Assembly (NCBI GenBank): GCA_036523395.1
Contig: DATDEH010000041.1
Location: forward strand, 1 to 32,635
DNA: 32,635 bases
Source of the DNA: Candidatus Limnocylindria bacterium
GTDB lineage: Bacteria > Chloroflexota > Limnocylindria > P2-11E
Direction of reading: 5' to 3'
The notes beneath the pieces were generated by a model. It was not told where the DNA came from, searched no databases, and saw nothing but the letters and a program-made list of their open reading frames with translations. Below are positions 28,361 through 32,635 of this stretch, piece by piece (position 1 is the first letter of the stretch; every line of letters begins with the position of its first letter). Position numbers and translations under genes: made by a program.

Positions 28361-28416
28361 AAACAAGAAAGCCCGCGCTCGCTCGTGTGCTCTCGCACAC
28401 CGGGACGAAGGCGGGC
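28361..28416 (-). terminator. T-box-controlled intrinsic terminator
   Basis: On the minus strand GCCCGC (28416-28411) pairs with GCGGGC (28376-28371), enclosing an inner hairpin GTGTGC/GCACAC, and TTTCTTGTTT (28370-28361) follows. The upstream arm lies next to the TGGTACCGCGG bulge sequence, so tRNA binding there would favour the antiterminator. The pheS Shine-Dalgarno begins directly after the T-run. Confidence 0.85.
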
Positions 28417-28610
28417 CTCCGCGGTACCACCCGATCTCCCACCGGCACGCGGCCGATGGACACTCGTGGGGAGCGCTATCGGGCTCCACCCGGATGCGCT
28501 TTTCTGCGCATCGGCTCCGGAGCGAATTCCCGCGTTCCGTGTCGCTGCGGGCTTTCAGTCACGACCCGCATTCCCTGTGCGACGTTTACGCGGTACTGGT
28601 CTCCCTCGAC
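28361..28610 (-). promoter_or_regulatory. T-box leader sensing uncharged tRNA-Phe, upstream of pheST
   Basis: Read on the minus strand, Stem I can be folded by eye. GGGAG pairs with CTCC at the base. The specifier loop has the loop-E bases AGTA (28597-28594) facing GAA (28529-28527), with the specifier TTC (Phe) at 28526-28524 and a purine after it. Above are paired CCGCGT/ACGCGG, GTCGC/GCGAC and TGCGGG/CCCGCA. A further hairpin GATGCGC/GCGCATC follows. The T-box signature GGGTGGTACCGCGG is at 28432-28419; its TGGT complements the tRNA-Phe ACCA end. A terminator follows. The leader begins immediately after the rplT stop and ends 10 nt before pheS. Confidence 0.93.
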
Positions 28611-28614
28611 GCCT

Positions 28615-28986
28615 CTATGAGCTGGCTCTGTCGGCTTTCTTCGTGTTCACCAAGTCGAGATAGTGCCGGAACACCTTTGGATCGCGGACTGCCATGTCCG
28701 CGAGGACCTTGCGGTCGAGCTGGACGCCCGCGCTCCGCATGGCGGCCATGAGCCGGCTATACGAGACGCCGGACTCGCGCGACGCCGCGTTGATGCGTGC
28801 GATCCAGAGCGAGCGGAACTGCGTCTTCCGCTTGCGGCGATCGCGGTAGGCGTAGTTCAGCGCGTGGAGCGCGGCCTCGCGCGCAGGACGGACGAGCTTG
28901 TGTTTCGCCCCGCGGCGGCCTTCTGCGGCGCTCAGGAGCTTCTTGTGCTTCTTGTGGGCGGCGACCCCGCGCTTTATCCGTGTCAT
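28615..28986 (-). CDS. rplT: 50S ribosomal protein L20
   Basis: A 123-residue, very basic protein needed for early 50S assembly. It starts MTRIKRGVAAHKKHKKLLSAAEG and has LWIARINAASRESGVSYSRLM; the C-terminal NTKKADRASS is a little longer than average. The ATG at 28986 has AGGAG upstream, 8 nt after rpmI. In other bacteria L20 represses infC-rpmI-rplT translation through a leader structure; no such leader was recognised here. Confidence 0.98.
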   Translation of the reverse strand: MTRIKRGVAAHKKHKKLLSAAEGRRGAKHKLVRPAREAALHALNYAYRDRRKRKTQFRSLWIARINAASRESGVSYSRLMAAMRSAGVQLDRKVLADMAVRDPKVFRHYLDLVNTKKADRASS

Positions 28987-29247: not shown

Positions 29248-30054
29248 TTAGTTCGTTCGCTTACGAGGCGCGGCGCTCGGCGCGGCAGCCGGTGTGCTCG
29301 CGGGCCGCGGAGCGCCTGGTGGTGTGGCGCTCGCACTCTGCGGCGCCGGGGGGGCAGTCGGCTTCGGCGCGGAAGCAGGAGCCGCCGCGGCAGGCCGTGG
29401 TGCCGGAGCTGGAGCGGCAGCCGCGGGTCTCGGTGCCGCCGCGGCCAGAGGAGCGGCGGGCTTTGGTACGGGAGCGCCTGCGGCGGGTGGCGGTGGTGTC
29501 GTGGTCCCGGGCGCCGGCGCTGTGGGCGCGCCCTGTGCGTCGCGACGAACGGGGTTCATGACCATGATCATCGAGCGGCCCTCGAGAAGGGGCATGCGCT
29601 CGACTATCCCGTGGTCTTTCAAGCGGTCGGCGACCTGCAACAGGAGCACCCGGCCGCGATCGGGGTGCGCGAGCTCGCGGCCACGGAAGCGAACGGTGAC
29701 TTTGAGCTTGTCGCCCTCGTCGAGGAACTTCGACGCGGACTTGATCTTCGTCTCGATGTCGTGCTCGTCGATCTTCGGCGTGATCCGGATCTCTTTCCAG
29801 GTCACCGAGCGCTGGCGCTTCTTCGCTTCCTTCGCCTTCTGCTGCTCGGCATAGCGGTACTTGCCGAAGTCGAGGATGCGGGCGACCGGCGGCGTCGAGT
29901 TCGGCGCGATCTCGACCAGGTCGTAGCCGAGATCCTGGGCGTGCGCGAGCGCGCGCTGCGTCGGAACGACACCGAGCTGTTCGTTGTTCGGGCCGATCAG
30001 GCGCACGGCGGGCACGCGGATACCTTCGTTGATCCGCAGTTCGGGAGCGGCTAT
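29248..30054 (-). CDS. infC: translation initiation factor IF-3 with long Ala/Pro-rich C-terminal extension and probable ATA start
   Basis: IF-3 prevents subunit association and proofreads start codons and initiator tRNA. The N-domain (ELRINEGIRVPAVRLI onward), the basic linker AKEAKKRQRSVTWKEIR and the C-domain (IDEHDIETKIKSASKFLDEGDKLKVTVRFRGRE to RSMIMVMNP) are all present. The family's RINE segment lies upstream of the first canonical start (GTG, 30015). Between it and an in-frame TGA there is no ATG, GTG or TTG. GGAGG (30066-30062) stands 7 nt before ATA (30054-30052), giving 268 residues. After about residue 171 comes a roughly 97-residue Ala/Pro tail ending RKRTN; normal IF-3 stops at about 175-180. 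Confidence 0.93.
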   Translation of the reverse strand: MAAPELRINEGIRVPAVRLIGPNNEQLGVVPTQRALAHAQDLGYDLVEIAPNSTPPVARILDFGKYRYAEQQKAKEAKKRQRSVTWKEIRITPKIDEHDIETKIKSASKFLDEGDKLKVTVRFRGRELAHPDRGRVLLLQVADRLKDHGIVERMPLLEGRSMIMVMNPVRRDAQGAPTAPAPGTTTPPPPAAGAPVPKPAAPLAAAAPRPAAAAPAPAPRPAAAAPASAPKPTAPPAPQSASATPPGAPRPASTPAAAPSAAPRKRTN

Positions 30055-30066
30055 ACGCGCGCCTCC
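30052..30066 (-). promoter_or_regulatory. Shine-Dalgarno and ATA start of infC
   Basis: GGAGG followed by a 7-nt spacer and ATA is the best-placed initiation signal for infC. Rare start codons on infC (AUU in E. coli) let IF-3 limit its own synthesis by discriminating against them; the same logic probably holds here. A TTGACT (30106-30101) upstream could be a -35 box, but no good -10 was found. Confidence 0.7.
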
Positions 30067-30120: not shown

Positions 30121-31263
30121 TCACCGGGCGAGGAGCGCACGAATGTGGTCGCGAACGGATGGCCAGTCCGTGCGCGTGATCCCATACACGACGCTCGTTC
30201 GGATGCGCCCATCGTGCGAGATCCGGTCGTCACGGTGCTCGCCCTCTTTGATCGCGCCCAATCGCTCCATCGCGCGCTGCGACCGATCGTTCAGCTTGTC
30301 CGTCTGCAGCCAGACGCGGTGCGCGCCGAGGTCCTCGAAGAGATGGCGTAGCTGCAGGAACTTCGCCTCGGTGTTCGCGACCGTGCGGCGTGCCTCGCGC
30401 CCGAGGAAGGTCCATCCGATCTCCGCGGTCTTGTTGCCACGATCGATGTGAAGGAAGCGCGTGCTGCCGATCGGCGCGCCGTCGCTGATGCGGCGCGTAA
30501 GGAACGCCACCTGATTGCCGAGGATCTGCTCCTGGAGCGCCGCGTCGATCCAGCGCTCGAGCTCCCCCACCTCGCGCGGCATCGGCACGAGCATGAGGCG
30601 CCAGATGTCGGCGTCGTGCGCTACCGGGAAGAGCTCGGCGGCGTGCTCGCGTCGCAGCGGCTCGAGCCGGACGTGCATCCCGGTGAGGGCGACCGGCCGT
30701 GGATCGAACGCCGGCCGCGTGCGGCCGACGACATACGCCATCTTCACGTCGTCGGCGAAATGCCCTTTGTCGGTCATGACCCCGTCCCGCTCGACGCCTT
30801 CGACCTCGAAGCCCGCCGCCCTGTACGACGCGATCGCGCGGTCGTTGTACGCGAGCACGCTGAGCGAGACGCGGTGGACGCCCAGATCGTCCACCAGGTG
30901 TCTGACGAGCAGTCCGAGCGCCTCGCGGCCGAGGCCCTTGCCCCACAGCGCCGGCTCGCCGATCCCGATCCCCACCTCGGCGCTCTTTCCCTTGGGGCGC
31001 AGATCGCGGTAGTTGGCCTGGCCGATCGGTCGGCCCTCGTATTCGATCGCGAACACGACGCCGCGGTTCTCGCCGATGACGTCCATCCATTTGCGCGCGG
31101 CGTCGTTGTCCGCGAAGCGACCCGGCCGCCGTCCCCACTGGAACCAGGCGAAGTCCGGGTCGTTCGCCCAGCGCACGAGGTGCGGCGCGTCGGCCTGTGT
31201 CATCGGTCGCAGCGTGACGCGCTGGCCACGGAGCGTCGGCGCGATCGCCTGTGTCGTTGTCAT
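30121..31263 (-). CDS. tandem GNAT N-acetyltransferase (two acetyltransferase domains)
   Basis: A 380-residue protein made of two RimJ/RimL-like GNAT domains in one frame. Domain 1 (about 10-180) has LRGQRVTLRPMTQADA, an acetyl-CoA loop ALWGKGLGREALGLLV and VHRVSLSVLAYNDRAIASYRAAGF. Domain 2 (about 190-370) has LTGMHVRLEPLRREHA, EIGWTFLGREARRTVANTEAK and HRVWLQTDKLNDRSQRAMERLGA; its acetyl-CoA loop is degenerate. Substrates are unknown; RimJ/L relatives acetylate protein N-termini, others act on small molecules or antibiotics. The ATG overlaps the thrS stop (ATGA), so it is co-translated with ThrRS, and infC follows after 66 nt. Confidence 0.85.
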   Translation of the reverse strand: MTTTQAIAPTLRGQRVTLRPMTQADAPHLVRWANDPDFAWFQWGRRPGRFADNDAARKWMDVIGENRGVVFAIEYEGRPIGQANYRDLRPKGKSAEVGIGIGEPALWGKGLGREALGLLVRHLVDDLGVHRVSLSVLAYNDRAIASYRAAGFEVEGVERDGVMTDKGHFADDVKMAYVVGRTRPAFDPRPVALTGMHVRLEPLRREHAAELFPVAHDADIWRLMLVPMPREVGELERWIDAALQEQILGNQVAFLTRRISDGAPIGSTRFLHIDRGNKTAEIGWTFLGREARRTVANTEAKFLQLRHLFEDLGAHRVWLQTDKLNDRSQRAMERLGAIKEGEHRDDRISHDGRIRTSVVYGITRTDWPSVRDHIRALLAR

Positions 31264-32635
31264 GCCATCGCGTCGCCCGCACTCGGCTCATGCGCGGCGA
31301 AGTCCGCCGGGAGAGCCTTGGTGTCGCGCTCCTTCTTGATGCGCTCGATGAAGTCGTCGAACGCGACGCCCCGATCTTCGTCGCGCGATCCGCGGCGCCG
31401 CACCGACACCGTCCCGGCGGCAGCCTCCTTGTCCCCGACGACGAGCATGTAATTCGCTCTGCGGTGCTGCGCTTCCTTGACGCGGTTGCGGAGATCGCCC
31501 GCCTGAGAGTCGAGGTGGACGCGGAAGCCGCCGGCGCGGAGCTTCGCGGTGATCTCACGCGCGTACTCGAGCGCCGTCTCGCGGACCGGGATCACCGCCA
31601 CTTGTTCCCACGCGAGCCAGAGCGGGAAGTTTCCGGCGTAGTGCTCGATGAGACCACCGACGAAGCGCTCGAGGCTGCCGAACAGCACGCGGTGGATCAT
31701 CACCGCGCGCTCGCGCTGGCCCCTGTCGTTCACGTACGTGACGTCGAAGCGCTCGGGCAGGTTGAGGTCGATCTGCACCGTGGCGCCCTGCCACTCGCGA
31801 CCGATGGCGTCGTGCACCTTGATGTCGATCTTCGGCGCGTAGAAGACGCCGCCGCCTTCGTCGATCTTGTAGGGGACCTCGCGGATACCGAGGGCGGTCT
31901 TGAGGGCGTCCTCCGCCTTGTCCCAGAGCTCATCCGAGCCGAGCCGTTTCTCTGGTCGGGTGGAGAGGTAGATCGATGGGTCCGTGTATCCGAATACGCT
32001 GAGGAACTCGAGCGCGAGATCGAAGACCTTCCCGATCTCCTCCTGTGCCTGCTCCCAGGTGCAGAAGATGTGGGAGTCGTCCTGCGTGAAGCCGCGGACG
32101 CGGAGCATCCCGTGGAGCGTGCCGCCGCGCTCGTACCGGTACACCGTGCCGAGCTCGCCGATGCGCATGGGCAGCTCGCGGTACGAGTGGATCTTCGACT
32201 GGAACACCTTGATGTGGCCCGGGCAGTTCATCGGCTTGATCCAGAAGTTCTGGGTGCCATCGTCGAGCGCGAGCGGACCGTACATGTTCTCGCCGTACTT
32301 CTCGAGGTGCCCCGACCGCTGGTAGATCTTCTCGTGCGCGATGTGCGGCGTGTAGACGAGCGTGTAGCCGCGCTCGTGATGGATCTTGCGCCACCACGCC
32401 TCGAGCTCCTCGCGCACGACCGACAGGTTTGGCAGCCACAGCACCAGGCCGGACCCCAGCTCCTCGTCGACGCGGAACAGCTCGAGCTCCTTGCCGAGGA
32501 CCCGGTGGTCGCGCCGCTCGATCTCCTCGAGTCGTTTCAGGTAGGCATCGAGCTGCTTCTGATCCGGCCACACCGTGCCGTAGATGCGCTGGAGCTGCGG
32601 ATTGCGCTCGTTGCCGCGCCAGTACGCGCCGGCGA
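31260..32635 (-). CDS. thrS: threonyl-tRNA synthetase (5' end beyond the window)
   Basis: The C-terminal 457 residues of ThrRS; the frame is open to the window edge (AGAYWRGNERNPQLQRIYGT is encoded at 32572-32633), so the N-terminal TGS and editing domains lie outside. It contains the class II core with the zinc-site Cys in MNCPGH, RYERGGTLHGMLRVRGFTQDDSHIFC, motif 3 HRVLFGSLERFVGGLIEHYAG and the C-terminal anticodon-binding domain (VAVIPVRETALEYA; ANYMLVVGDKE). The stop overlaps the tandem-GNAT start by 4 nt. The tail after the anticodon domain (ALPADFAAHEPSAGDAMA) is slightly extended. Confidence 0.96.
   Translation of the reverse strand, partial: AGAYWRGNERNPQLQRIYGTVWPDQKQLDAYLKRLEEIERRDHRVLGKELELFRVDEELGSGLVLWLPNLSVVREELEAWWRKIHHERGYTLVYTPHIAHEKIYQRSGHLEKYGENMYGPLALDDGTQNFWIKPMNCPGHIKVFQSKIHSYRELPMRIGELGTVYRYERGGTLHGMLRVRGFTQDDSHIFCTWEQAQEEIGKVFDLALEFLSVFGYTDPSIYLSTRPEKRLGSDELWDKAEDALKTALGIREVPYKIDEGGGVFYAPKIDIKVHDAIGREWQGATVQIDLNLPERFDVTYVNDRGQRERAVMIHRVLFGSLERFVGGLIEHYAGNFPLWLAWEQVAVIPVRETALEYAREITAKLRAGGFRVHLDSQAGDLRNRVKEAQHRRANYMLVVGDKEAAAGTVSVRRRGSRDEDRGVAFDDFIERIKKERDTKALPADFAAHEPSAGDAMA

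Follow-up and report, generated by a model that had tools for sequence, protein, structure and literature searches.

In all likelihood, infC in this member of the Chloroflexota is translated from an AUA codon (30054-30052, minus strand) by way of an upstream GGAGG, and the non-canonical codon is kept so that IF3, the gene product, represses its own mRNA. AUA is the start codon on comparison of sequences, as an earlier note on this DNA had read it, and autorepression by IF3 is very probably the reason for it, judged by analogy with characterized systems. Comparison of genes showed where the start lies and that canonical codons are avoided there; repression of this particular gene by IF3 we infer from work in E. 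coli and Streptomyces. Across the phylum, the infC start is probably confined to codons rejected by IF3 but free to drift among them, with selection acting on rejection and not on a particular codon.

The window, i.e. the whole stretch of 32,635 nucleotides that was analyzed, has a GC content of 68% and comes from a draft genome of 3.0 Mb in 128 contigs. Sample names of close relatives, which give depths in cm, suggest that these are mostly from soil. Pfam matches showed the operon context thrS / infC-rpmI-rplT, with all genes on the minus strand. Upstream lies thrS (31260-32635; tRNA-synt_2b and HGTP_anticodon), cut by the window end, and downstream lie rpmI (L35, 28995-29201; Ribosomal_L35p, GTG start) and rplT (L20, 28615-28986; Ribosomal_L20, ATG start). 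A gene for a two-domain GNAT acetyltransferase (30121-31263, minus strand; Pfam Acetyltransf_3 in two stretches) was located between thrS and infC and overlaps the end of thrS by four bases. Most genomes of the window's family have it at this position, but none was detected in the loci from the class's other families. The thrS gene, too, was found in relatives. No Rfam match to a known RNA leader was obtained between the GNAT gene and infC.

From ATA, the infC coding sequence (29248-30054, minus strand) encodes an IF3 of 268 aa. Read 5' to 3' on the minus strand, the sequence runs from an in-frame TGA (30105-30103), which bounds the possible starts, through CTT CAT CTA CCG GCA GGC AAT CCC TCT GCT CTT AGC GGA GGC GCG CGT to ATA (30054-30052), followed by GCC GCT CCC GAA CTG CGG ATC AAC GAA GGT ATC CGC GTG (30015-30013) CCC. 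The Shine-Dalgarno GGAGG (30062-30066, minus strand) stands 7 nt before ATA. As the 16S rRNA of the same genome ends ...GGATCACCTCCTTTCT, with CACCTCCTTT carried at this 3' end, the GGAGG can pair with the anti-Shine-Dalgarno. The order reported in the earlier note (GGAGG, seven bases, ATA, then A-A-P-E-L-R-I-N-E-G-I-R-V-P) was exact in the minus-strand sequence, and no ATG, GTG or TTG occurred in frame from the TGA down to the GTG at 30015, as it had stated. Its prediction that automatic annotation would shorten the gene by 13 residues also held, the mechanical open reading frame call from 30015 giving 255 aa against the 268 aa from ATA.

The product is a full-length IF3, with N- and C-terminal domains above curated cut-offs. 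Profile scores were 195.8 bits for TIGR00168 (cut-off 60, E = 4e-58), 94.8 bits for IF3_N and 113.1 bits for IF3_C, and 11 solved IF3 sequences were matched. Both domains were intact and the protein aligned end to end with the IF3 of E. coli and Thermus. A C-terminal tail of ~100 residues, mostly Ala and Pro, extends past IF3_C (29251-29550, minus strand); its length is probably variable, as relatives differ in open-frame length.

The comparison of upstream regions among relatives, proposed in the earlier note as a check, was run, and ATA after the Shine-Dalgarno proved invariant in the family, and other non-canonical codons occupied that position elsewhere in the class. The family set comprised 28 genomes, 21 of which had a usable IF3 match; 20 genomes from 7 genera were counted, and one locus (L005) was left out. 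ATA was present at the infC start in 20/20, 5-7 codons before the conserved Ile/Val-Asn and always followed by GCN, and none of the 20 had a canonical codon in frame anywhere from the upstream stop to the motif. Isoleucine codons inside the same family genes were ATC 92, ATT 1 and ATA 0 (n = 93), and those in eleven other window genes were ATC 258, ATA 7 and ATT 5 (n = 270). It is therefore the codon itself, and not the residue, that is conserved at the start; an ordinary Ile codon would not be expected to read ATA in 20/20. When the 20 leaders were anchored on ATA, ATAGC was conserved at 100%, conservation was moderate at -11 to -8 (the purine-rich Shine-Dalgarno zone, the conserved part of these leaders) and low elsewhere upstream. 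Shine-Dalgarno match scores were 4.35 at family infC starts and 3.0 at a downstream control.

The excluded locus, L005 (genome G019), would be a family member without ATA; its nearest IF3 was that of L193 from another family (74% over 82 aa), and it is likely a misbinned contig, judged by this match. A CTG two codons before the Ile of RIN was rejected as a start because relatives vary among CTG, CTC and CTT at that position.

For the class, 109 infC genes were read from five families and one was omitted as its 5' end looks broken (L042), leaving n = 108. Beyond the family, starts were assigned by position and Shine-Dalgarno, some of them by eye. The codon at the homologous position, after a purine run resembling a Shine-Dalgarno, was ATC in 36, ATA in 33, CTG in 24, ATT in 14 and ACG in 1. 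A tree was built from the N-terminal region of infC, using codons downstream of the start only and excluding the start codon. It required at least 14 changes of start codon, none of them to ATG, GTG or TTG; the tree is short (246 columns) with many weak forks, and 14 is an approximate minimum. One transition would turn ATA into ATG, and from CTG each of ATG, GTG and TTG can be reached by one substitution; chance is thus an unlikely reason for the lack of canonical starts. In the controls from the same operon, rpmI began with ATG in 24, GTG in 20 and TTG in 1 (45/45 canonical). For rplT, the motif was found in 46 loci, 45 of which had an ATG start; the remaining rplT locus, a TTC motif match, was judged false. 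Of the class infC genes, 94 had a stop within reach upstream, and 21 of these also had a canonical codon somewhere before the motif. Over the whole class, a simple Shine-Dalgarno match score separated poorly (4.5 at starts and 4.1 at the downstream control).

The ACG comes from the sister family, of which one genome was sampled (loci L023, genome G028, and L213); the 5' end of infC there reads CTA ACG AAA GAG CTC CGG. This ACG aligns with the ATA of the window's family, and GAGGT lies 9 nt upstream of it.

Under the proposed mechanism, the GGAGG seven bases upstream would select the AUA at 30054-30052, and initiator fMet-tRNA would read it with a third-position mismatch. IF3, which destabilizes initiation complexes at codons outside AUG/GUG/UUG, would then repress the infC mRNA at high IF3 levels and relieve that repression when IF3 runs short. 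Selection would keep any codon that IF3 rejects; since any of them suffices, relatives could exchange AUA, AUC, AUU, CUG and, in one case, ACG at this position and still never take a canonical start.

Four other explanations were weighed against this reading. The GTG at 30013-30015 (minus strand) is the first canonical in-frame start and the gene finder's choice, and translation might begin there, leaving the conserved-looking residues upstream untranslated; this is very improbable. Among the 20 family members the codon was GTG in 3, GTC in 9 and GTT in 8, i.e. no possible start of this kind in 17/20, which fits an internal Val codon of infC. A start at this GTG would also remove INEGIR (positions 1-6 of Pfam IF3_N), the conserved segment whose loss the earlier note had pointed out, and the codons from ATA to GTG differ by synonymous changes (CTG/CTC/CTT, GCC/GCT/GCA/GCG), the pattern expected of coding sequence. 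That note had named a canonical start elsewhere in relatives as a result that would speak against AUA; none was found in the comparison, and the GTG at 30015 was itself unconserved. It had also raised a sequencing error, and the genome is indeed a draft (128 contigs) with metagenome-assembled relatives. The probability that a sequencing or assembly error turned ATG or GTG into ATA is nevertheless negligible, since ATA is common to 20 genomes of 7 genera and is also seen in named GenBank MAGs, and one error cannot be common to 20 genomes. Coupling of infC to an upstream frame through an overlapping ATAG is largely refuted and scarcely credible as the reason for ATA. ATAGC does occur in 20/20 family genes, placing a TAG across the start, and a 60-aa open reading frame ends at this TAG in the window, but 10/20 genes have no canonical start in the upstream frame, the residues encoded there are unrelated between genera, and genes elsewhere in the class with ATC AGC, ATT AGC or CTG GCA have no such stop.

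An unlikely explanation, though less so than the preceding three, is that ATA, as a weak start, simply keeps IF3 at a low level and that IF3 exerts no feedback. In its favor, non-canonical starts cut reporter expression in S. aureus about tenfold regardless of feedback (PMC13009471). A weaker Shine-Dalgarno, or GTG or TTG, could equally give a low level, and the switches of start codon (at least 14) all stayed inside the set that IF3 disfavors, which argues for feedback over a mere low level. In E. coli, autocontrol of infC is reportedly abolished when AUU becomes AUG, according to the title of Butler et al. 1987. Initiation at AUA with repression by IF3 is accordingly the preferred reading.

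A further 90 infC genes were read from the rest of the phylum, most by a rule that took, from the near-cognate codons lying 5-8 codons ahead of the motif, the one with the best Shine-Dalgarno. Genes with longer N-termini were set by eye (L152, L153, L158-L163, L168, L169, L173, L176-L178, L192, L196 and L197), as were the starts of L187 and L188. The codon was ATC in 40, ATT in 25 and ATA in 24 (89/90), with TTG as the best candidate in one (L193); these phylum-wide counts are softer than those for the class. A canonical codon was present somewhere upstream in 37 of the 82 genes of the phylum sample with a stop in reach. L193 (genome G298, another family) and L005 have a longer infC N-terminus (RKRRTKAPPKPPAPEP) with an apparent TTG start, and this lineage of the phylum may have lost the non-canonical one.

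Among named genomes elsewhere, the infC codon was ATA in Neomegalonema, other Alphaproteobacteria and Dehalococcoidales, ATC in Acidimicrobiia and Phycisphaera, ATT in Christensenella and TTG in Treponema. The apparent TTG start of Treponema and other Spirochaetaceae follows GGAGGT (L235, L236, L238-L240, L242, L243, L245, L246, L248 and L260). With TTG in L193/L005 and in Treponema, the non-canonical infC rule is not universal. ATA near the infC start was also seen in alphaproteobacterial MAGs, Neomegalonema and others (L217-L233), and AUA therefore arose or persisted in several phyla.

IF3 is known to destabilize initiation on codons outside AUG/GUG/UUG, and this property underlies the autoregulation of E. 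coli infC, which starts at AUU (PMC5472188). An AUU start of infC is documented in E. coli and B. subtilis (PMC1805508; PMC6097659), supported by peptides in Xanthomonas (PMC5559785) and confirmed in Listeria (PMC13068326). Streptomyces infC starts at AUC, with widespread misannotation (PMC5472188), and the AUA start of S. aureus infC was mapped by retapamulin ribosome profiling (Ribo-Ret; PMC13009471). The earlier note had called the window start a parallel solution in a distant lineage; the non-canonical start was borne out, but the phrase undersells the known cases, which cover several phyla and include AUA in S. aureus. Non-canonical infC starts in several phyla were thus known already; what the comparison adds is the phylum-wide rule, the switching of codons, and infC starts at CUG and ACG. 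No papers dealing with infC in Chloroflexota, or with infC genes that start at CUG or ACG, were found in the open-access literature (subscription papers and preprints were outside this scope), and CUG (24 genomes) and ACG (one genome) would be new infC start codons.

Compared with E. coli infC, the window has the same gene with thrS upstream and rpmI-rplT downstream, a non-canonical start after a good Shine-Dalgarno and a two-domain IF3. It differs in using AUA where E. coli uses AUU, in starting 7 codons before the Ile of RIN, and in the GNAT gene between thrS and infC; regulation by IF3 in the window is proposed by analogy. S. aureus infC shares the gene, the AUA codon and direction by a Shine-Dalgarno (PMC13009471), but belongs to another phylum, and its start was mapped experimentally whereas the window start was placed by comparison. 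The likeness to Streptomyces infC (AUC) and sigR (GUC) lies in a GC-rich genome, an infC start prone to misannotation and a codon rejected by IF3 (PMC5472188). Streptomyces has AUC where the window has AUA, and it is for sigR that repression of a non-canonical start by IF3 was demonstrated there.

The reading would extend the best known feedback based on a start codon to a large, mostly uncultured phylum, as the rule there. Repeated switching among five weak codons would serve as a natural experiment for learning what IF3 senses, and the same comparison, which looks for a position where one codon is fixed to the exclusion of its synonyms, could reveal other genes controlled by IF3. Gene finders limited to ATG/GTG/TTG will truncate or mis-start infC in these genomes.

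A T-box leader (28398-28618, minus strand) was detected upstream of pheS (RF00230, 84 bits, E = 1e-18, just below the gathering score of 93), with UUC at the expected specifier position, in agreement with phenylalanine. This leader contains the first GTG (28489) of the pheS open reading frame, and the real pheS start is therefore further downstream.
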